DNA from: Pelagomonas calceolata
Lineage: Eukaryota > Sar > Pelagophyceae > Pelagomonadales > Pelagomonadaceae
DNA length: 64,000 bases
Direction: 5' to 3'
NCBI GenBank assembly: GCA_918797485.1
Contig: CAKKNE010000003.1
Location: forward strand, 4,092,001-4,156,000
This document shows, one piece after another, positions 40,031 through 52,966 of this stretch (its first letter is position 1; the number at the start of each line of letters is the position of its first letter). The notes below the pieces were generated by a model that had not been told where the DNA came from, did not search any database, and was given only the letters and a program-made list of their open reading frames with translations. The position numbers and the translations under genes were made by a program.

Positions 40031-40852
40031 TCACACCGCCCGCGGGTCCCCCGGCTGCCACCGCCACGCCCCTCCGGTGGTCTGCGTGCCGGCATTTTCG
40101 GGGTTCGCCCAGAGCGTCCGCGGCAAACAAATCTCGTCGACGTCGCGCAGCGGCAACAAATCGCCGACGTCGTCTTCTACTAGTTCTTCTGGATCTATCG
40201 TCCACGCGTCGTCGGCGCCGGGCCCCAGCAACGTTTCGAAGACGCGGGACCACGCGGCGAACGTGTCGTCTCCAAGGACGAACTCGATACTCCGCGGCGC
40301 CTCATTAGCTAAAGCAGCCGACGCGGCGGCCTCCAGACCGAAGGCCGCCGTCACGGCTGGATCCCAGCCCTTCACACCCGCACCGAGCGCGGGACACGCG
40401 ACGCACTCCAAGTCGGCCGCAGCTTTAAATGAGGAGCGGTAGGCCGCGCGCAGCAGGTCCTCGGGCGCGCCCTTTCGGCCTTGGTAGCGGCCGAACGTCA
40501 GCTCAACATCAGGAGCCACGGCGTGAATGATGTTATCCGCCTCCAGCGAACCGGCCGTCGTCTTTACCGCACTCCCCGTCGGGCAGCGCACGACGGCCGA
40601 CTCGTGTACCTTGACGGCCCTGGTCCATCGCACCAAGTCGCGCTTTTCAGTCTCATCTTTGATCGGCAGCGCGAGGCACGCGTCAATCAAATCAGGGCCC
40701 GCCTCCGCGCGCAGCGCGCCGTCCACATTAATTCCTCCCTCGAAGCGCCAGTACTCCGGTTGTAAATTACCGACGAGTGAGTCGTTGGCGCTCGTGATTA
40801 AAGCGCTGGCCCGTTGGTGTTCCAAGCGGCCGCGGCGGAGGGCGACGCGCAT
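40031..40852 (-). CDS. Macro-domain protein
   Basis: A 273-aa protein. The macro fold is seen at the N-terminus: ALITSANDSLVGN, FEGGINVDGALRAEAG, then NIIHAVAPD and VACPALGAGVKGWDP, the usual ADP-ribose-binding loops. Macro domains bind or remove ADP-ribose from proteins. The C-terminal ~80 residues are acidic, without a recognised domain. A second, unrelated macro domain occurs in the large protein at 47511-50876. Confidence 0.8.
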   Translation of the reverse strand: MRVALRRGRLEHQRASALITSANDSLVGNLQPEYWRFEGGINVDGALRAEAGPDLIDACLALPIKDETEKRDLVRWTRAVKVHESAVVRCPTGSAVKTTAGSLEADNIIHAVAPDVELTFGRYQGRKGAPEDLLRAAYRSSFKAAADLECVACPALGAGVKGWDPAVTAAFGLEAAASAALANEAPRSIEFVLGDDTFAAWSRVFETLLGPGADDAWTIDPEELVEDDVGDLLPLRDVDEICLPRTLWANPENAGTQTTGGAWRWQPGDPRAV

Positions 40853-41357
40853 CTGTTTCGATCGCTGCGGCGGCGTGCAGGGCCGGTCTGCAGCTTGCTG
40901 GTGTGGTTACGGCTCAATTTGCCAGCACCGGTAGCATCGATCGCAGAGCGCCATCATTCGGCAATTAGGCACATTTGACACCATTTTGCACGCAGGCGGC
41001 TCGCGCCACGATCGTGTGTTTTTGGGAGAGGCTCTCACAGTGGAGACCGCAGTGACGCCGCCGCCGCGCCAGTGAATTTTACACACTCGGAGACGTGTAG
41101 CTTGCGGTCCAGGGAGGCGGCGAGCGGATGGATCATTCTTCCGGGTTCGCTAGGTTTCGCCTCTAGGCCTCTCCCATCGAGGACAGCCATAGTTTAGCCT
41201 CACTACGCGACCGCCCGCAGCATTAGCTCGTCGAAGACGTGCGCTTGATATCGCTCCTCGCTGTACAAACCGCTTCGCCGCAAAGTTCGACCTCCCGGCA
41301 GCCGCTGAGCCTCATCCCTCTCCTCCGCCGCCGACGTCGACGCTGCCGCCGTGCGCT
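40853..41357. other. Divergent promoter region
   Basis: About 505 bp between the macro-domain gene (minus) and the cyclodeaminase-like gene (plus). No repeat or RNA gene recognised. Confidence 0.5.
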
Positions 41358-45679: not shown

Positions 45680-47458
45680 ATGGCCTCCATGATGCTCCGC
45701 ATGATCGGCCTCGGCCCCAAGAAGGCCAAGAAGAAGAAGAATAGGCGGGCCACGTTAGGGGCTGTTCCTGAATATCAAAAAGAACAGCGCAAGCCCCCAA
45801 CAAAGGACGGTAGGACACCGTTAGGAGCCATTCAAGAACATAGAGAAGTGCCCAAGGCGCGCAAAGTCCGGCGGTCCATGCGGCGCCACTCGCTGGGCGC
45901 CATGCCCCTGTCTCCCGACGAGAAGACGCCGCCGCGCAAGAGGTCTCCAGTAAAAAAACAGGCCCCGCCGAAGTGGGAGCAGTTCGCGCGCGAGAAGGGC
46001 ATCTCGCCGCGGCCGAAAATGTCGCCGCCACCGCCGGGCACGCCGGCCGAGGTGCGGCGGCTGCGGAAGCGCGTCTCCGAGCTCGAGCAGACCATCGCGT
46101 TCCGCGACAAGTCGCTCGACGACATCGAGGCGGAGCTGCTGGCGGCCTACGCTTCCTTGCTCGCCGCGGCCGATTTAGGATTTGAGACGTCGAAGTACGA
46201 AGCTCGCGTCGAGGAGCTCTCTACCGCAGCCACGGAGCACCCCGAGCGGGCGCTGCGCGACCAGGAGCTCCGTCGAGCCTTTGTGGACGAGGAGGTTAGT
46301 GGACCGGCGTCGGAGGCGTTGGCGTTGATCCGGGGGCTCGTGCCGTCCGACTTGTCGAGCGGTGGATCTGTTTCTGTCGAGCGACTCGTGGATGCTGGAT
46401 TACCCGTGAAAGTCGCGCATAGAGTTTCAAGAACGAGAGCTTTATGGTTAACGAGGGTCCATCCGGATGAAATTGCGAAGATGCACGCGTCGGATCTCGT
46501 GAACACGCGAGCTACCGTCACGCTGGATTTGGTCGAAGCGCGGGCGGTGTGGCGCCAGTGCCTGCGGGTGAACTTCGCCGAGAACGACACCGACGGAAGA
46601 AAAAGGGCCTGGTTCGAGGAATTAGAGAGACGGGTGCGAACCTTGGTGTCGAAGGAGGCCGAGGGCGACCTGTCTCCCAAAGACGCCTGCCATCCGGCCT
46701 ACGATAAATTTAGGAGGGAGAGCGGCCCGTTCTCCGACGTGACGTCGCCCGAGAAGGGCTTCGCGCCGACGAAGTCCGGCGCCTACCTGCCGACGCCGCA
46801 GCCCTACTCCGCGAAGCGGACCGTGGTGCGGACGCCGGCGCCTTCCGAAGAATTTCCGCCGTTCAGCGAGACGGCCCAGGCGACGCCCATGTGTCCGCAA
46901 CAGCCCCACGAGGAGGCCGAGGACTTCCCCGCGACGCTCGAGTCGCCGGAAGTCATCAAGGCAGCTGTGGAAGAGGCGGACGTCGAAAACAGGCGGCGGT
47001 CGTCCGTGGGCTCGGCGGCGACGATGGCCTTCGTCGAGGCGACTTTGAGGGAGGACGACGCCATGGCACCGCCGCCGCCGCCCTCGGATACGACAGATAA
47101 CTCGGCGGCGTCGTCGCGCAAGTCGGTCACGTGGCGCCTGCCCGAGAAGCCGGCAAACGACTGGTTCGACGCGGCGGCGAGGAAGGCCGCCCAGGCGCGG
47201 TCGGTGCCGCGGACGCGCATTGCGCCGCCGCCTTCGATAGATGTGGAGTTCGCTGATGACGCGTTGCGACAGTTCGTCGAGACGAACGGCCTGTCGGCGT
47301 ACGCGGCGGCCATCCTCGGCGTGGCCGACTCGCTCGACGACTTGGTCGAGGCGACGGACGAGGACGTCGACGAGCTCGCGGCGGAGACGGGCATGCCGAA
47401 GCTCAAGCAGCGGAAGTTCAAAAGGGCGCTCGCGGGGCTGCGCGGCGATAGCGCCTGA
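45680..47458 (+). CDS. Coiled-coil protein with C-terminal SAM domain
   Basis: A 592-aa protein. The N-terminus is basic and contains three related motifs, ATLGAVPEYQ, TPLGAIQEHR and HSLGAMPLSP. A coiled coil follows at ~115-160 (RLRKRVSELEQTIAFRDKSLDDIEAELL). The middle (~210-350) is helical: LIRGLVPSDLSSGGSVSVERLVDAGLPVKVAHR suggests an AAA- or RuvB-like small helical domain, but I cannot assign it. A disordered Pro/Ser segment follows. The last ~75 residues are a SAM domain (ADDALRQFVETNGLSAYA...). The last 54 residues or so are identical to the end of the convergent Macro-CHAT-STAND protein. SAM domains form homo- and hetero-polymers, so it is a candidate partner of that protein. Confidence 0.8.
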   Translation: MASMMLRMIGLGPKKAKKKKNRRATLGAVPEYQKEQRKPPTKDGRTPLGAIQEHREVPKARKVRRSMRRHSLGAMPLSPDEKTPPRKRSPVKKQAPPKWEQFAREKGISPRPKMSPPPPGTPAEVRRLRKRVSELEQTIAFRDKSLDDIEAELLAAYASLLAAADLGFETSKYEARVEELSTAATEHPERALRDQELRRAFVDEEVSGPASEALALIRGLVPSDLSSGGSVSVERLVDAGLPVKVAHRVSRTRALWLTRVHPDEIAKMHASDLVNTRATVTLDLVEARAVWRQCLRVNFAENDTDGRKRAWFEELERRVRTLVSKEAEGDLSPKDACHPAYDKFRRESGPFSDVTSPEKGFAPTKSGAYLPTPQPYSAKRTVVRTPAPSEEFPPFSETAQATPMCPQQPHEEAEDFPATLESPEVIKAAVEEADVENRRRSSVGSAATMAFVEATLREDDAMAPPPPPSDTTDNSAASSRKSVTWRLPEKPANDWFDAAARKAAQARSVPRTRIAPPPSIDVEFADDALRQFVETNGLSAYAAAILGVADSLDDLVEATDEDVDELAAETGMPKLKQRKFKRALAGLRGDSA

Positions 47459-47755
47459 AGGTACCCTCCCCAAGAAATAAGTTTCCCACAACACGTAATG
47501 GTTACACACCCTACGTCGCGCCGCGCAGGCCTGCGAGCGCTCGCTTGAACTTCCTTTGCTTGAGCTTCGGCATACCCGTCTCCGCCGCGAGCTCGTCCAC
47601 ATCTTCATCCGTCGCCTCGACCAAGTCGTCGAGCGAGTCGGCCACACCCAAAATGGCCGCCGCGTACGCGCTCAGGCCGTTCTGTTCGACGAACCGCCGC
47701 AATGCGTCGTCGGCGAACTCGATCTGAGGCGGCGGCGCGATGCGCGTCGTCGTCC
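47211..47755. repeat. Inverted duplication coding for two SAM domains
   Basis: Bases 47211-47449 (plus) and 47517-47755 (minus) encode nearly the same ~75 residues, preceded in both by TRIAPPP. The spacer is about 70 bp and holds both stop codons. The DNA differs at roughly twenty positions over the last 54 codons, all synonymous by my reading, so the copies are not recent but the protein has been held constant. Confidence 0.85.
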
Positions 47756-50700
47756 AGGCCGTCGGACCGAGCGCGTAGCCGGCCACGAGGGCCGCCAACC
47801 CGGCGAGCACGAGCCCTCCGGGAATCCGAGCGCGGAATTCGGGCGCGGGCGTGGAGGTATCTTCGGGCTCGGGCCGATACCCCCGCCCGTACAGGACCAC
47901 GTAGTTGAGCTCGTCGCGGAACCGCCGGAGGTCCGCGTCGAACACATCCGGTTCATCGAGCACGCGCAAGGCGCGGTCCAGCGGTTCGCGCGACGGCGGC
48001 GGCGGCGGCGTGCTCGCGCCCGCGGCTTCACACGCCTCCTTTTCCGCCCTTTCCGCCGCGAAGAGCTTGTTCAGAATAGCCACCGCTAGCAGGACCGCGT
48101 ACGGCAGCCCATTGAGACGTTTTATGAACGGATGCAACGCGCACGCGACGACCACATCGTGCGGCGCAGTTTTGGGAGGTAGCGGCGTGTAGGGATTCGT
48201 GACGCGGCGCTTGAGCTCGGTACACCTCTGCAGGAGTAAGAGCGCGGTGTCGCCCGGCGCCATTGGCCCCAGGCTGACTGGCTGCTCCGTGACGCCACGC
48301 ACGAGGCCGATGCCCGAGCCCGACGAGCACGTCAGCAGCACTCTTATGTTCGAGCACGCTTCCAGTAGACCCTGCAGTAACAAGCGACAGCGTTCTCTCG
48401 CTCTTTGTTCGTCGCCGGCTGTGACGAGTCGTTCAAAATCGTTCAGGACCACGAGGACCCTCCCGGCGCTTGCCAGGTCCGCCAGCGTGGAGGTGTTGAT
48501 GAACGCCGCCGCCCCTGTCACGTCGTCGAAGAAGCGGTCGTGCGTCGTGGCTTCGACCCAGACCACAGCGTCGAATTTCCGATGATGTCGCACGTAGGCC
48601 GCCGCTTTTGCCGCCAAAGCACTCTTGCCGGAGCCGTAGCGCCCGCCGATCGTTGTGAGACGATGGTTGAGGATGGACTCGAGGCAGACCAACAACTCGG
48701 AATCCCGGCCCACGAAAAACGTCGGCGGCGGCGGCGCGTTGGACGGCACCGGCGGCGGCGTCGTCTCGCGGAACGACCCGGGGATCTCGGAGAAGATGGG
48801 CTCGTCGTGGGGTTGGTCCTCCGGGAGCAGTACGAAGCGTCCGTCCGAAGTCATGTTCTTGCGCGTGTTCTGCGCTGCGGCGCAACCGATGTCGAAGGCT
48901 GTGCGCACCGAATCCATAATCGCCAGAGATCGGTAGAACGCCCGGCAAAATTCTATGCCCGCGCGATCGGAAATCCTACCGTTGTTCTGGTCCTGCGCCA
49001 CGGCGACCACGTGTTCCACGCCCGCGGCCACGAACGCTCGCCCAACATCTTCGCTCTTGCACGAGTTCAACACCACCAATTTGCATGTCCCAGCCGCACA
49101 GGCTGACACACACCTCCGCAGCGCCTTGGCCTCCAAGGCGTGCGCGCCGCCGTGGCCGTCTTCGAACATCATAATCCCTTCTTTGCCGTGGCCGGCAAAA
49201 TGCACCACGCGCGCCCCCAGCGTCACGGCCGATTGGAACGCGTCCACGGTGGCGGTGCGGACCTGGAGCTCGACGTCAACGTTCGCGCAAGCTGCGGCTT
49301 CGCGCAGCGCCTGCCGGAGTTTGTTGGCCTCGCCCTCTAGATCCAATCCGCCGATCTTCCCTAGTGGTATTTCTCGATCTCGTGCGTACACAGTCGAATT
49401 GTTCAACGGCTCGCTCTGCAGCATGACGACGCGGTTCGCCAAAACCGCGCTGCTCGCTTGCCGCTGTGGCGGCAAGCGGCGCGGCACGGGCCCGCCCGCC
49501 AGCAACAACTTCGCGACGCGCTGGAGGACCTCCTGCTCGGTTGGGCTGAAGGCGACGAGGTGCACCCGCTGGAGACCTGGATAAGCCATGTCGCCAATAG
49601 CGCGCACCGCCACTTCGAGCACGTTCTCCAACGACCGCGTCCCTCGACCGATACCCGCCGACAACAGAGTAAACGCGACCGTCTTGCAGTGATTTTCCTG
49701 GGCGCGCCGCATCGCCGCGAGGTAGGCGTCGCGCAGGAGGTCGTCGCCCCCGCGCGTGTTGGCGTCCAGCTTCCGGTAGTCGGGCCCGACGGCGTGGATG
49801 ACGACGGAGCACGCCAGAAACCCAAAGGGCCCGCCCGTGGTGACGACGGCGTCGCCGACCTCGCAGCGCTTGTCGCCGCCGCTGATGATGGGTAAGGCCT
49901 GCCGCTTCTCCGCTAACAACGCTCCTCCGGCTCGAGCGATCGCCCCGTCTGCGCCGCCCCTTTCGAGACAGCTCTTGTTGGCCGCGTTCACGATCGCGTC
50001 GACATCGGCGTCCACGACGCTTCCGGCCGAGACCACCAATTCGCCGTATTTCAGGGCGTGGCGCGCCAGGGGTGCCAGGTTGTCGACCAATCCGCCGTCC
50101 GGCGAGCTCGACCTGACTGTGTTGACCGCGAACTCCTCCGACTCCGTCCGCAGGCGATGTACAGCGAGACGGGCGCTGAAGGCCTCGTCAGGCATGGTCT
50201 GGGCTCCCTCGACGAGGCGCGCCTGGACGGGCGCTTGCACGACGGCCTCGGCCGCGGCCGCGGCGCCTCCACTTAGCATGGCGCAAAAGCCCACGTGCCG
50301 TTCCTTCAGCCGCCCCGCGGTCTCGAGCAGGCCCCGGGGCCAGCCCCGCTCGGAGGCCACGCCCCCCTCGAACTTCCAGACGTACTGGCCGTGCTCGCCT
50401 TCGTCGTCCAGGGACAGGCACAGGCCGCCCCGGCCCCCCGGCCCCCAGCCGGCCCGCCACCCGGCGCACAGGTCGCCGGAGCTGTTCTGGACGCCGACGT
50501 ACTGGCCCGCTTCCAGGTAGAGGGGCGGCGCCACGCGCACCGTCTGCTCCGCGCCGAGCACGTGCGCCACGCGGATGGCCCGCCGGCGCTCCTCGACGAG
50601 GTAGCCCTGCGATTCGCCCATGGCGCCCGCCCGCGTGCTGTACGAGCACACGTCCCAGCCGCTCCCGTCCGCCGGCCCCGCCGGCCGGCCGTGCAGCCGC

Positions 50701-50876
50701 AGCCGGACCTCTCGGACGTAGCCCGCGAACGGCGCCTTGGCTTTGAGGACGACGCGGTGCGCGTCGCGGTACAGCCGCGTCGGCTCGGCCGGCAGCGGCG
50801 CGAGCCCCAGGACGTGCGCGCGCTGGATGGGCGCTGCGCTGGCTTTTACCCCCGGGGAGGCGCATCTATCCGGCAT
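47511..50876 (-). CDS. Macro-CHAT-STAND-TM-SAM protein, NLR-like
   Basis: A 1,121-aa single-exon protein. Order: an N-terminal beta-rich domain (~25-200, FAGYVREVRLRLHG, YLEAGQYVGVQNSSG); a macro domain (~270-460, AIVNAANKSCLERGGADGAI, LLSAGIGRGT); a CHAT caspase-like domain (~500-690) with the catalytic His in VVHFAGHGKEG and Cys in LVVLNSCKSEDVG; a STAND/NB-ARC ATPase (~725-900) with P-loop GGRYGSGKSALA and Walker B VLVVLNDFERL; one membrane span (~1020, GGLVLAGLAALVAGYALG); and a C-terminal SAM domain. CHAT and STAND domains together are typical of protease-type immune and death effectors. Here the sensor could be the macro domain (ADP-ribose) or the N-terminal domain, with SAM for assembly. 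The role is inference. Confidence 0.85.
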   Translation of the reverse strand: MPDRCASPGVKASAAPIQRAHVLGLAPLPAEPTRLYRDAHRVVLKAKAPFAGYVREVRLRLHGRPAGPADGSGWDVCSYSTRAGAMGESQGYLVEERRRAIRVAHVLGAEQTVRVAPPLYLEAGQYVGVQNSSGDLCAGWRAGWGPGGRGGLCLSLDDEGEHGQYVWKFEGGVASERGWPRGLLETAGRLKERHVGFCAMLSGGAAAAAEAVVQAPVQARLVEGAQTMPDEAFSARLAVHRLRTESEEFAVNTVRSSSPDGGLVDNLAPLARHALKYGELVVSAGSVVDADVDAIVNAANKSCLERGGADGAIARAGGALLAEKRQALPIISGGDKRCEVGDAVVTTGGPFGFLACSVVIHAVGPDYRKLDANTRGGDDLLRDAYLAAMRRAQENHCKTVAFTLLSAGIGRGTRSLENVLEVAVRAIGDMAYPGLQRVHLVAFSPTEQEVLQRVAKLLLAGGPVPRRLPPQRQASSAVLANRVVMLQSEPLNNSTVYARDREIPLGKIGGLDLEGEANKLRQALREAAACANVDVELQVRTATVDAFQSAVTLGARVVHFAGHGKEGIMMFEDGHGGAHALEAKALRRCVSACAAGTCKLVVLNSCKSEDVGRAFVAAGVEHVVAVAQDQNNGRISDRAGIEFCRAFYRSLAIMDSVRTAFDIGCAAAQNTRKNMTSDGRFVLLPEDQPHDEPIFSEIPGSFRETTPPPVPSNAPPPPTFFVGRDSELLVCLESILNHRLTTIGGRYGSGKSALAAKAAAYVRHHRKFDAVVWVEATTHDRFFDDVTGAAAFINTSTLADLASAGRVLVVLNDFERLVTAGDEQRARERCRLLLQGLLEACSNIRVLLTCSSGSGIGLVRGVTEQPVSLGPMAPGDTALLLLQRCTELKRRVTNPYTPLPPKTAPHDVVVACALHPFIKRLNGLPYAVLLAVAILNKLFAAERAEKEACEAAGASTPPPPPSREPLDRALRVLDEPDVFDADLRRFRDELNYVVLYGRGYRPEPEDTSTPAPEFRARIPGGLVLAGLAALVAGYALGPTAWTTTRIAPPPQIEFADDALRRFVEQNGLSAYAAAILGVADSLDDLVEATDEDVDELAAETGMPKLKQRKFKRALAGLRGAT

Positions 50877-50904
50877 GGTCTGCTGTTTGTTTGCGCGCCT
50901 GGTG

Positions 50905-51060
50905 GCGGTGCTCGGCGCTCGGCTGCCGGGGCAGCTGAGGATTGCTTCGCAGGCACGTCGAGAGTGGTGCGTGCGATAGGCGCAACCAGCTTTTCGCTAG
51001 CCAGGCTGCTGAGCCGCGCTCGGGATACTCGGGCAGCCTCTGTCCCGGGATCTCCGCTCC
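50905..51060 (-). promoter_or_regulatory. Upstream block shared with the Dabb gene
   Basis: GCTCGGCTGCCGGGGCAGCTG, ATTGCTTCGCAGGCACG and GCTCGGG...GCAGCCT occur in the same order at 51680-51810. Each copy lies just upstream of a minus-strand start (50876 and 51583). A duplicated promoter or 5'UTR segment is the simplest reading. The two copies differ by small indels. Confidence 0.5.
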
Positions 51061-51172: not shown

Positions 51173-51583
51173 TCATCGGCGCGCGAGCAAGCGCCCGAGC
51201 GCGACGCCGCAGACCAGCGCGGCGAAGACCCTGGTATTCGACGGCGGCGTCCGCTGCGAGCAGGGCGTCGCCCACTCCATCATCGCGCACGTCTGCACCG
51301 CGTGCCGGCGCATCAGGTGCGGCTTCAATAAACCGAACGCGTCCAAGTGATTTCTAGCTTTCGTGTAGCGGCGGTAGTCGTCCTCCGTCGCGAACTCCGC
51401 GACGATGGCGACGTCGTGGGTCATATTCCTTCTGCCAAATTCTGAATCATCCTTGCCGATGCGGTACGACAGGATGTAGGTCTCGGTGACCGGGATCTGG
51501 CCGAGCTTTTTCAGGCCGGGCTCGACGACGCTTTCCGGCGTGCCGGGCTTCCACTGCAGCAGGACGACGTGCGTGAGCGTCAT
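51173..51583 (-). CDS. Dabb (stress-responsive A/B barrel) domain protein with membrane tail
   Basis: A 136-aa protein. The ferredoxin-like alpha/beta barrel is seen as MTLTHVVLLQWKPGTPESVVEPGLKKLGQIP, YRIGKDDSE, then DVAIVAEFATEDDYRRYTKARNHLDAF, matching the Dabb family of dimeric barrel proteins. The C-terminus (RVFAALVCGVALGRLLARR) is a single hydrophobic segment with a basic end, as in tail-anchored proteins. Dabb proteins vary in function (stress proteins, cyclases), so the activity is unknown. Confidence 0.78.
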   Translation of the reverse strand: MTLTHVVLLQWKPGTPESVVEPGLKKLGQIPVTETYILSYRIGKDDSEFGRRNMTHDVAIVAEFATEDDYRRYTKARNHLDAFGLLKPHLMRRHAVQTCAMMEWATPCSQRTPPSNTRVFAALVCGVALGRLLARR

Positions 51584-51980
51584 CTTGTGTCTTCGGCGCC
51601 TGACCGCGAGCGCGGCGCTCTAAGATTGAAAGGCAGGGAGAGCACTCTCAAGAGTACTCTGGACCAAAGGCAGCGTCGTCGTGCGGTGCTCGGCTGCCGG
51701 GGCAGCTGCTGATTGCTTCGCAGGCACGATATCTGTCGAGAGTGATGCGTGCGATTGGCGCAGTTCGCTTTCGCTGGCCAAGGCTTGCTCGGGCAGCCTG
51801 TGGATCTAGAATCTCTCCGTGCTAGCGGGCCGCAATGAAAACAATTATGAAAACACCGCTAGCCCCAATAAGCGACTCTCCCTCGGTCTCTCTGAAGTAT
51901 CCGGGCCCATATGGGGGCTACACGGAGGCAGGGGGAAAATGAAGCTTCCTTTGCACACCAGCTTACAAATTTGTGGGGGA
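51584..51980. other. Upstream region of the Dabb gene with duplicated block
   Basis: Holds the second copy of the 50905-51060 block at 51680-51810. Otherwise nothing recognised. Confidence 0.5.
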
Positions 51981-52463
51981 CTACTTCGCGCCGCGCTTGC
52001 CGAGCGCATAGCCCAGGGCGAGGCCCGCGAGGCCCGCGAGGACCAGCGCGTGCTCGACCTTGACTTCAATAGTTTTGCCCTTGACGCTCACACCGGGACA
52101 CAACGCGCACTGGCAGTCGTCGCCGCACTCGCAGTTCGGCCCGCACGTGCAGGTCCCCAGGGCCACCGCCGGGCACGGCCCCTTGCCGCCACCGCAGGGC
52201 GTCACGACGTAGCCCGCGTCGACCAGTGCTTTGGACATGGCCGTCGCCGCGCATTGGCACGCGTCGCCGCAGGGGCATTTCCCGTCGGGCTTCGGGCAGT
52301 CGCAGCCCGGGAACGCGCCCTGTAACGTTCCGGTGGCCGTGCCCTTTTCCAGAGAGACGTCCGCCCTCGAGACGAACGGCAGCGCTTCCAATGTGGAGGT
52401 GACGCGCTTGACGCAGGCCTGGCAGGTCATTTTCACGTTGAGGGTGACTGATGAGGGCGCCAT
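51981..52463 (-). CDS. HMA copper-chaperone domain fused to metallothionein-like Cys clusters, tail-anchored
   Basis: A 160-aa protein. The HMA fold starts VTLNVKMTCQACVKRVTSTLEALP, with the CxxC metal site of copper chaperones. A Cys-rich segment (CDCPKPDGKCPCGDACQC) is inserted within the HMA fold before its last helix and strand (AMSKALVDAGYVVTPCGG). A second cluster follows (CTCGPNCECGDDCQCALCPG). Both resemble metallothionein, with CxC and CxxxC pairs. The last ~20 residues (ALVLAGLAGLALGYALGKRGAK) are a membrane tail. The protein could hold and hand over copper or other soft metals at a membrane. It is divergent from the two-TM Cys-rich gene. Confidence 0.82.
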   Translation of the reverse strand: MAPSSVTLNVKMTCQACVKRVTSTLEALPFVSRADVSLEKGTATGTLQGAFPGCDCPKPDGKCPCGDACQCAATAMSKALVDAGYVVTPCGGGKGPCPAVALGTCTCGPNCECGDDCQCALCPGVSVKGKTIEVKVEHALVLAGLAGLALGYALGKRGAK

Positions 52464-52966
52464 CTTGTCGATGTGTTGTATTTATTCGCAGGAAATCGTG
52501 TTTTTTGCAGGGATGCGGTGAACGGTACGCTGTCAAATTGCGCGTGTGGACAGATAGCAGCAAGGGAGCACTGCTAAATGGTAGCGCACACAACGTTGTC
52601 TGTTTGTACTTGCGTGTATAGGCTAGGCGATTATAACTCCTGGGTTGTGTGGGCTAGCGGCCGGTAAGACACTAGCAAGCAAGATTTGTACGCCTGCTTG
52701 CCCGGAGAGGCTTAAGGCCGTTCCAGGGAGTCCTTTCGGACGGATCGAGAGGCAATTTTGGGTGCAGCGCATCCTCTGCCAAAGTGAGCCCTCTCCCAAA
52801 AAGCGCTTGCACCCAGGCGTTGCAACGTAGCGAGAGAGCAGTTATAAGTCGCCGCGCAGCGCAATCCCCAGCTGTGTTGCAAGAAAACCCTCGTCGCGCG
52901 ACGCTCACAAATCTTTTGACCTGGGCTGTGGTCACAGCCTGTTTAGCGCTGCGCGCACGCGCCACC
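52464..52966. other. Divergent promoter region with one palindromic motif
   Basis: Between the HMA gene (minus) and the two-TM gene (plus). Holds motif copy 5 at 52653-52676. The plus-strand start has the exact Kozak context GCCACCATGA. Confidence 0.55.
52653..52676 (-). repeat. Dispersed palindromic motif, copy 5
   Basis: On the minus strand GCTAGTGTCTTACCGGCCGC plus TAGC. The flanking AAG (on the plus strand CTAGCAAG) is shared with copy 3. Confidence 0.75.

Follow-up and report, generated by a model that had tools for sequence, protein, structure and literature searches.

An unusual macro-CHAT-STAND gene of the picoalga Pelagomonas calceolata and the apparent capture of its SAM-like tail from a neighbouring gene

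CHAT proteases have been given a role in cell death in fungi (PMC12881547, PMC11138114), where CHAT-type NLRs and a TPR-bearing CHAT protease paired with gasdermin join CHAT to a nucleotide switch or a repeat sensor (PMC12881547). In bacteria, CHAT is found in a CRISPR-linked SAVED-CHAT protein (PDB 8tl0, 'activated SAVED-CHAT filament'; PMC11417357), and the membrane-associated caspase conflict system 4 and the iSTAND/VMAP systems pair a peptidase of the caspase superfamily with membrane helices and with end domains that can be exchanged, macro domains being listed among the effectors in related systems (PMC7159879). A eukaryotic CHAT family, the TPR-CHAT proteins of Acropora corals, has expanded with tandem duplication (PMC12314368), candidate immune receptors of the ROCO type in brown algae, also stramenopiles, are diversified by shuffling (PMC11378527), and phytoplankton are said to be without caspases and other canonical cell-death components, yet with metacaspases (PMC8455989). 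Here we describe a gene, hereafter the CHAT gene, in a 64,000-nt stretch of the pelagophyte picoalga Pelagomonas calceolata (the window; contig CAKKNE010000003.1, positions 4,092,001 to 4,156,000). Its complete frame (window positions 47511–50876, minus strand) encodes a protein predicted to consist of an N-terminal module, a macro domain, CHAT, a STAND ATPase, a hydrophobic span and a SAM-like domain.

This is a real and unusual architecture, a variant of the CHAT-plus-STAND combination with a clear capture of a SAM-like tail from a neighbouring gene; it is NLR-like on paper and is not classed here as an NLR. Compared with the fungal CHAT-type systems as outlined in the available text (PMC12881547), the protein has a macro domain and an N-terminal module before CHAT, a hydrophobic span and a SAM-like tail, and no repeats; gasdermin was not detected with PF04598 either in the genome (1 of 14 control genomes gave a match, below the cut-off) or among the 10 neighbouring frames scanned. 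SAVED-CHAT (PMC11417357) has a SAVED sensor and no STAND, macro or anchor, while the bacterial caspase conflict systems are prokaryotic and multi-gene, their parts not being described in the available text (PMC7159879) as one chain in this order. The Acropora proteins have TPR repeats, with no macro or STAND mentioned for that architecture in the text available (PMC12314368), and the brown-algal ROCO genes are described as shuffling single LRR exons (PMC11378527), whereas in the present family it is entire end modules of a gene with a single frame that vary among relatives. A search of the open-licence literature found neither CHAT, macro and NACHT domains together nor macro and NACHT together, and found CHAT with NB-ARC in fungi only; two comparative-genomics surveys (one of them PMC7159879) mention macro domains, with no macro-CHAT-STAND chain described in their available text.

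The minus-strand frame is uninterrupted from 47511 to 50996 (1161 codons), and translation from the ATG at 50876 yields 1121 aa before the stop; the protein start, MPDRCAS, recurs in P0003, P0004 and P0030 (relatives are labelled P0002, P0003 and so on, genome loci L0xx, C1, C6a and C6b). A protein search with residues 460–1010, for which the 7991 best candidates were scored, recovered the window protein and 16 close relatives; the one other match was a distant WD40 protein. One relative is from Chrysophaeum taylorii, one is an MMETSP transcript and the remaining ones carry no species; 4 of the 16 have a macro domain. The genome search covered 32.4 Mb in 8 contigs, corresponding to a published nuclear genome of 32.4 Mb in six contigs, to which a plastid and a mitochondrial contig are added (PMC9481584), and the PF12770 profile identified at least five CHAT loci there. 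Besides the window gene, these include a tandem pair on contig 6 (C6a, macro-CHAT-STAND with a SHOCT-like tail; C6b, CHAT-STAND with a hydrophobic tail), a contig 1 frame with CHAT-STAND, and a frame of 2062 codons on contig 2 (L028, 739–6924, plus strand) in which CHAT and a STAND-like ATPase come after a marginal match to LRR (E 0.0032, under the cut-off). The LRR-CHAT-STAND order of the latter differs from that of usual NLRs. Other genome matches comprised three of C14 type and four TIR, and a single viral locus (L044) was related, at 29% across a short stretch, among 95 candidate stretches. Against C6a, pN/pS of the window gene was 0.47 for macro, 0.38 for CHAT and 0.62 for STAND, with 1.31 in a linker of 28 codons; the comparison with C6b gave 0.41 for CHAT and 0.56 for STAND. 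Because of this homology and the three domain values against C6a, the arrangement is not due to chance, and the single open reading frame joining macro, CHAT and STAND that had been proposed in the initial annotation was confirmed by the uninterrupted frame, Pfam, AlphaFold and relatives with contiguous macro-CHAT-STAND frames.

The predicted CHAT caspase-like protease domain spans aa 501–716 (48729–49376, minus strand), with a PF12770 match at 508–652 (E 1.9e-9, 37.9 bits against a cut-off of 24). The motifs HFAGHG (559–564) and NSCKS (604–608) are present as initially annotated, and we take His563 to be the catalytic histidine by analogy with caspases, paired with Cys606. Both residues were conserved in 18 of 18 rows of an alignment that omits P0002, P0005 and P0018, the last of which reads HFVGHG and was thus missed by the motif scan of relatives. 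The AlphaFold model gave a caspase-like fold whose best CHAT match was the SAVED-CHAT filament 8tl0; by sequence and model, the domain is a predicted caspase-like fold with a His-Cys dyad. Selection was evaluated in 60-codon segments (24 for window gene–C6a, 16 for window gene–C6b and 14 for C6a–C6b). Against C6a, the segments within 585–704, the first of which includes Cys606, were the most constrained (pN/pS 0.14–0.25), while segments including His563 reached 0.56 and 0.94. The CHAT gene is constrained coding sequence, as judged from these substitution patterns, and constraint alone is no proof of catalysis.

The STAND ATPase (aa 717–1010; 47847–48728, minus strand), of predicted NB-ARC/CED-4 type, contains the P-loop GRYGSGKS at 745–752, again as initially annotated, a kinase-2-like motif at 807–817 that reads LND, and GLPY at 923–926. 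In the window protein, nSTAND1 and NACHT (E 5e-5) both fell below the Pfam cut-offs, and among three scanned CHAT-STAND relatives, P0002 and P0016 had nSTAND1 above the cut-off, which P0003 narrowly missed. AlphaFold returned both the CHAT and the STAND fold on which the initial annotation depended, and the best rows of the STAND fold search were CED-4, Apaf-1, NRC3, NRC4 and a plant resistosome, with AAA+ proteins close behind. With Walker A, kinase-2 and GLPL-like motifs and a modelled NBD-HD1 fold, the domain is assignable to the NB-ARC/AP-ATPase group. CED-4 and Apaf-1 activate caspases. The window protein shares with them and with the plant NRC/ZAR1 NLRs the nucleotide-binding and helical domain fold, but carries a protease in the same chain and shows no CARD or CC domain. 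Neither was an MHD motif seen after GLPY in its sequence, nor a winged helix in the STAND model, where no strands follow fragment residue 414 and a low-confidence tail could conceal one; the Pfam scan at E ≤ 1 found no LRR, WD, TPR or ankyrin repeats, and only 111 residues lie beyond position 1010. The proposed NLR-like reading is strengthened by the resemblance of STAND to CED-4, Apaf-1 and plant NLRs, by a dyad invariant in the aligned rows and by the occurrence of the N-terminal module in TIR and ROC-COR proteins, and since repeat sensor, winged helix and MHD were not seen, the protein is best called NLR-like. We place at about 55% the reading that it is a membrane-tethered, NLR-like protease switch of the picoalga.

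The macro domain (aa 262–466; 49479–50093, minus strand) was recognized by PF01661 at 296–411 (E 3.3e-23, 82.3 bits against a cut-off of 22), and 27 PDB sequences matched at E values under 1e-5, the top ones named O-acetyl-ADP-ribose deacetylase. The ADP-ribose loops had been annotated as intact; loop 1 is canonical (NAAN...GGADGAI), while loop 2, STG.(F/Y)GYP in MacroD-like proteins, is divergent (SAGIGRG). This altered loop would suit a signalling scaffold, in which CHAT is no working protease or macro only binds, and the ATPase or the SAM-like tail gives the output. The weakly constrained surroundings of His563 (0.94 against C6a), the intact SAM-like tail and bacterial vWA systems, in which about 70% of effector-position caspase domains are reported to be catalytically inactive (PMC7159879), point the same way, but the dyad in all 18 aligned rows and the strong constraint from 585 on argue for a protease, and we regard a scaffold as improbable. 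At least 12 macro-domain copies were found in the genome, the nearest outside the CHAT-STAND family (L025, L026 and L027, 63–69% identical) lying in C2-domain, TPR and stand-alone proteins, a relatedness which suggests that the module spread within the genome. The window contains a second macro-domain gene (40034–40906, minus strand, E 1.9e-15), some 7 kb away from the CHAT gene.

The beta-rich N-terminal module (aa 22–205; 50262–50813, minus strand) shares 88% identity with the beginning of P0030, a FIST protein from a metagenome, and is found again in P0031, which contains TIR, and in P0032, an ankyrin-ROC-Ig-COR-TIR-SAM protein. It was present in none of the 16 CHAT-STAND relatives, and its sole match in the genome was the CHAT gene itself. 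A four-row AlphaFold model (pLDDT 38), too poor to classify, had no Foldseek match at E ≤ 0.001, and neuropilin rows (E about 0.5–1.6) were not used. A profile search that hit 339 PDB sequences was likewise set aside, the best 60 being mostly of ankyrin type, caused by P0032's own ankyrin repeats.

The C-terminal ends differ across the family. Ten of the 16 relatives share one homologous hydrophobic tail (query: the P0016 tail), which hydropathy resolves into two separate spans in three and one span in seven; P0017 continues for about 115 residues beyond it. Pfam SHOCT tails were found in P0003 and P0014, and the tail of C6a recurs in P0004, P0005 and P0006; we call it SHOCT-like though Pfam does not list it. 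The closest relative, P0002, has just one hydrophobic span, near its end; it also carries an extra N-terminal STAND copy (STAND-macro-CHAT-STAND-hydrophobic tail). In midpoint-rooted trees, the shared hydrophobic tail occurred in rows outside the main group and the two SHOCT proteins in different groups, so tails were probably swapped more than once, although several forks of the CHAT tree were weakly supported. The CHAT and STAND trees omit P0005 and P0018 and include P0002 only after residue 610, and C1 (L032) lacks a STAND match in the second tree. P0007 grouped with P0003 and the window protein by CHAT but with P0013 by STAND; this was not taken as proof of recombination, as metagenome proteins may be assembly chimeras. 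Comparison of the window gene, C6a and C6b thus shows three close paralogues of one genome bearing three different tails. By sequence, the family has a constrained CHAT-STAND core, most found members end in the shared hydrophobic tail, and the ends of the window gene differ.

A small family of at least five CHAT loci with hydrophobic tails would also fit a non-immune regulator, a membrane-tethered protease of normal physiology (stress acclimation, organelle turnover or cell cycle) with macro as an ADP-ribose stress sensor. Selection in the family is purifying, diversifying selection being rejected (pN significantly above pS in 0 of 54 segments), and a putative human TPR-CHAT homologue, TTC28, is described in cytokinesis (PMC12314368), both in line with such a role. 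An NLR-type STAND match and an N-terminal module found in TIR/ROC-COR proteins are more usual among defence or cell-death genes, however, and we hold the non-immune role to be possible but rather unlikely.

The one membrane span initially annotated corresponds to a hydrophobic stretch at aa 1018–1036 (47769–47825, minus strand), proposed from its mean hydropathy of 1.92, for which a core ATPase helix scores nearly as high (1.74). From this stretch to the C-terminus there are 85 residues in the window protein and 6 in P0002. If the span is a membrane anchor, the SAM-like domain and STAND-CHAT would lie on opposite sides, which argues against the proposed joint assembly through STAND and SAM.

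The SAM-like domain (aa 1052–1121; 47514–47723, minus strand) is a copy of the end of a convergent neighbour (45680–47458, plus strand; 592 aa). An inverted duplication links the 3' end of this coiled-coil/SAM-like gene (donor arm, 47212–47447, plus strand, 236 nt) to an acceptor arm inside the CHAT gene (47519–47748, minus strand, 230 nt), the arms being separated by 71 nt and 87% alike across ungapped blocks. The two genes, with stop codons 52 nt apart, are complementary to each other over about 230 nt at the 3' ends of their coding regions (47212–47748), and their transcripts could pair. Pfam placed DUF5817_CT first (E 0.012) and SAM_KSR1 second (E 0.048) on the tail, both below cut-off, while a six-row profile found six matches in the PDB at E ≤ 1 (the best at 0.008), all of them SAM-domain chains and one so named; the annotated SAM domain is therefore genuine sequence with weak profile recognition. 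Since full-length relatives of the neighbour (P0021–P0023, 92–94%; P0024, 65%) end in the same domain while it was found in none of the 16 relatives of the CHAT gene, the sequence evidence identifies the neighbour as the donor. Further relatives of the neighbour, P0025–P0028, end before the domain, and P0029 is too distant for detection at E 0.01. As a capture that the 16 relatives lack, the domain is not the assembly device of the CHAT-STAND family that it had been thought to be; that no SAM-bearing relative was found may reflect sampling.

The copies differ at 22 of 65 codons, 20 synonymously and two with amino-acid changes, and at both changed residues the window copy matches the outgroup P0024 and the neighbour deviates. 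As the changes lie on the neighbour's branch, the window copy appears by parsimony to have kept its protein sequence, as expected for a translated, constrained domain. The dS of the pair (0.62) exceeds the values obtained when the CHAT genes on contigs 3 and 6 are compared (0.24 for CHAT, 0.34 for STAND and 0.53 for macro), so the capture was not very recent. Read artefacts can create inverted repeats, and the N-terminal module and SAM-like tail, both missing from all 16 relatives, might be joined only on paper through separate transcripts, an intron or an assembly error. Arms that are not near-identical, modules without an intervening stop and a copy that looks translated speak for one product, as does, though it says little about 236 nt, an assembly reported as Hi-C-checked at chromosome scale (PMC9481584), and we consider such an artificial joining very improbable.

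Two further pieces may have come from the upstream side. A 45-nt leader element 36 nt ahead of the CHAT ATG (50913–50957, minus strand) is 93% identical to a copy at 51684–51728 (minus strand), 100 nt ahead of the Dabb-domain ATG (51583), and a 34-place pattern built from both matched exactly these two places in the genome at up to three mismatches (control, 0). An HMA-domain gene (51981–52463, minus strand; also given as 51981–52481), whose 3' end lies some 1.1 kb upstream of where CHAT starts, has a hydrophobic tail GYALGKRGAK resembling the GYALGRRGAK of P0002; besides the CHAT gene it was the one genome match to the P0002 tail (E 3.2e-4), with weak alignment at the DNA level. The Dabb (51173–51619, minus strand) and HMA genes resemble P0002 in that each ends in a short, seemingly hydrophobic tail whose last residues are basic, and hydropathy flags HMA alone. 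These similarities suggest that the CHAT gene was assembled locally from its neighbours, the case being strong for SAM, fair for the leader and suggestive only for the tail.

As a membrane-tethered, NLR-like protease switch, the protein would sense, through its N-terminal module, its macro domain or both, a ligand that could be a partner protein, an ADP-ribosylated protein, or ADP-ribose or a metabolite like it; the ligand of SAVED sensors is a cyclic oligonucleotide. ATP binding would then let STAND oligomerize at the membrane, bringing CHAT domains together for activation by proximity, and active CHAT would cleave a substrate to start cell death or stress signalling, with SAM as a later accessory recruiting a partner, perhaps the neighbour's product. 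A proximity-activated protease fits because of the anatomy, the cell-death role of fungal CHAT, the filament as best CHAT match and the bacterial conflict systems that couple caspases to membranes.

More tentatively, and with more doubt than conviction, pelagophyte picoalgae may own a candidate CHAT/NB-ARC cell-death receptor family, with an ADP-ribose sensor beside the protease, that diversifies as entire end modules are exchanged, among them pieces copied from genes next door (the SAM-like tail through inverted duplication, and a leader and an anchor tail like those of the genes upstream). One chromosome-scale genome illustrates here how an NLR-like gene gains new ends from its neighbours. 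If the proposed switch is true, single-celled phytoplankton would have an NLR-like system, and a CHAT protease and a CED-4/Apaf-1-type switch in a single chain would be a direct candidate for picoalgal death or resistance to infection.
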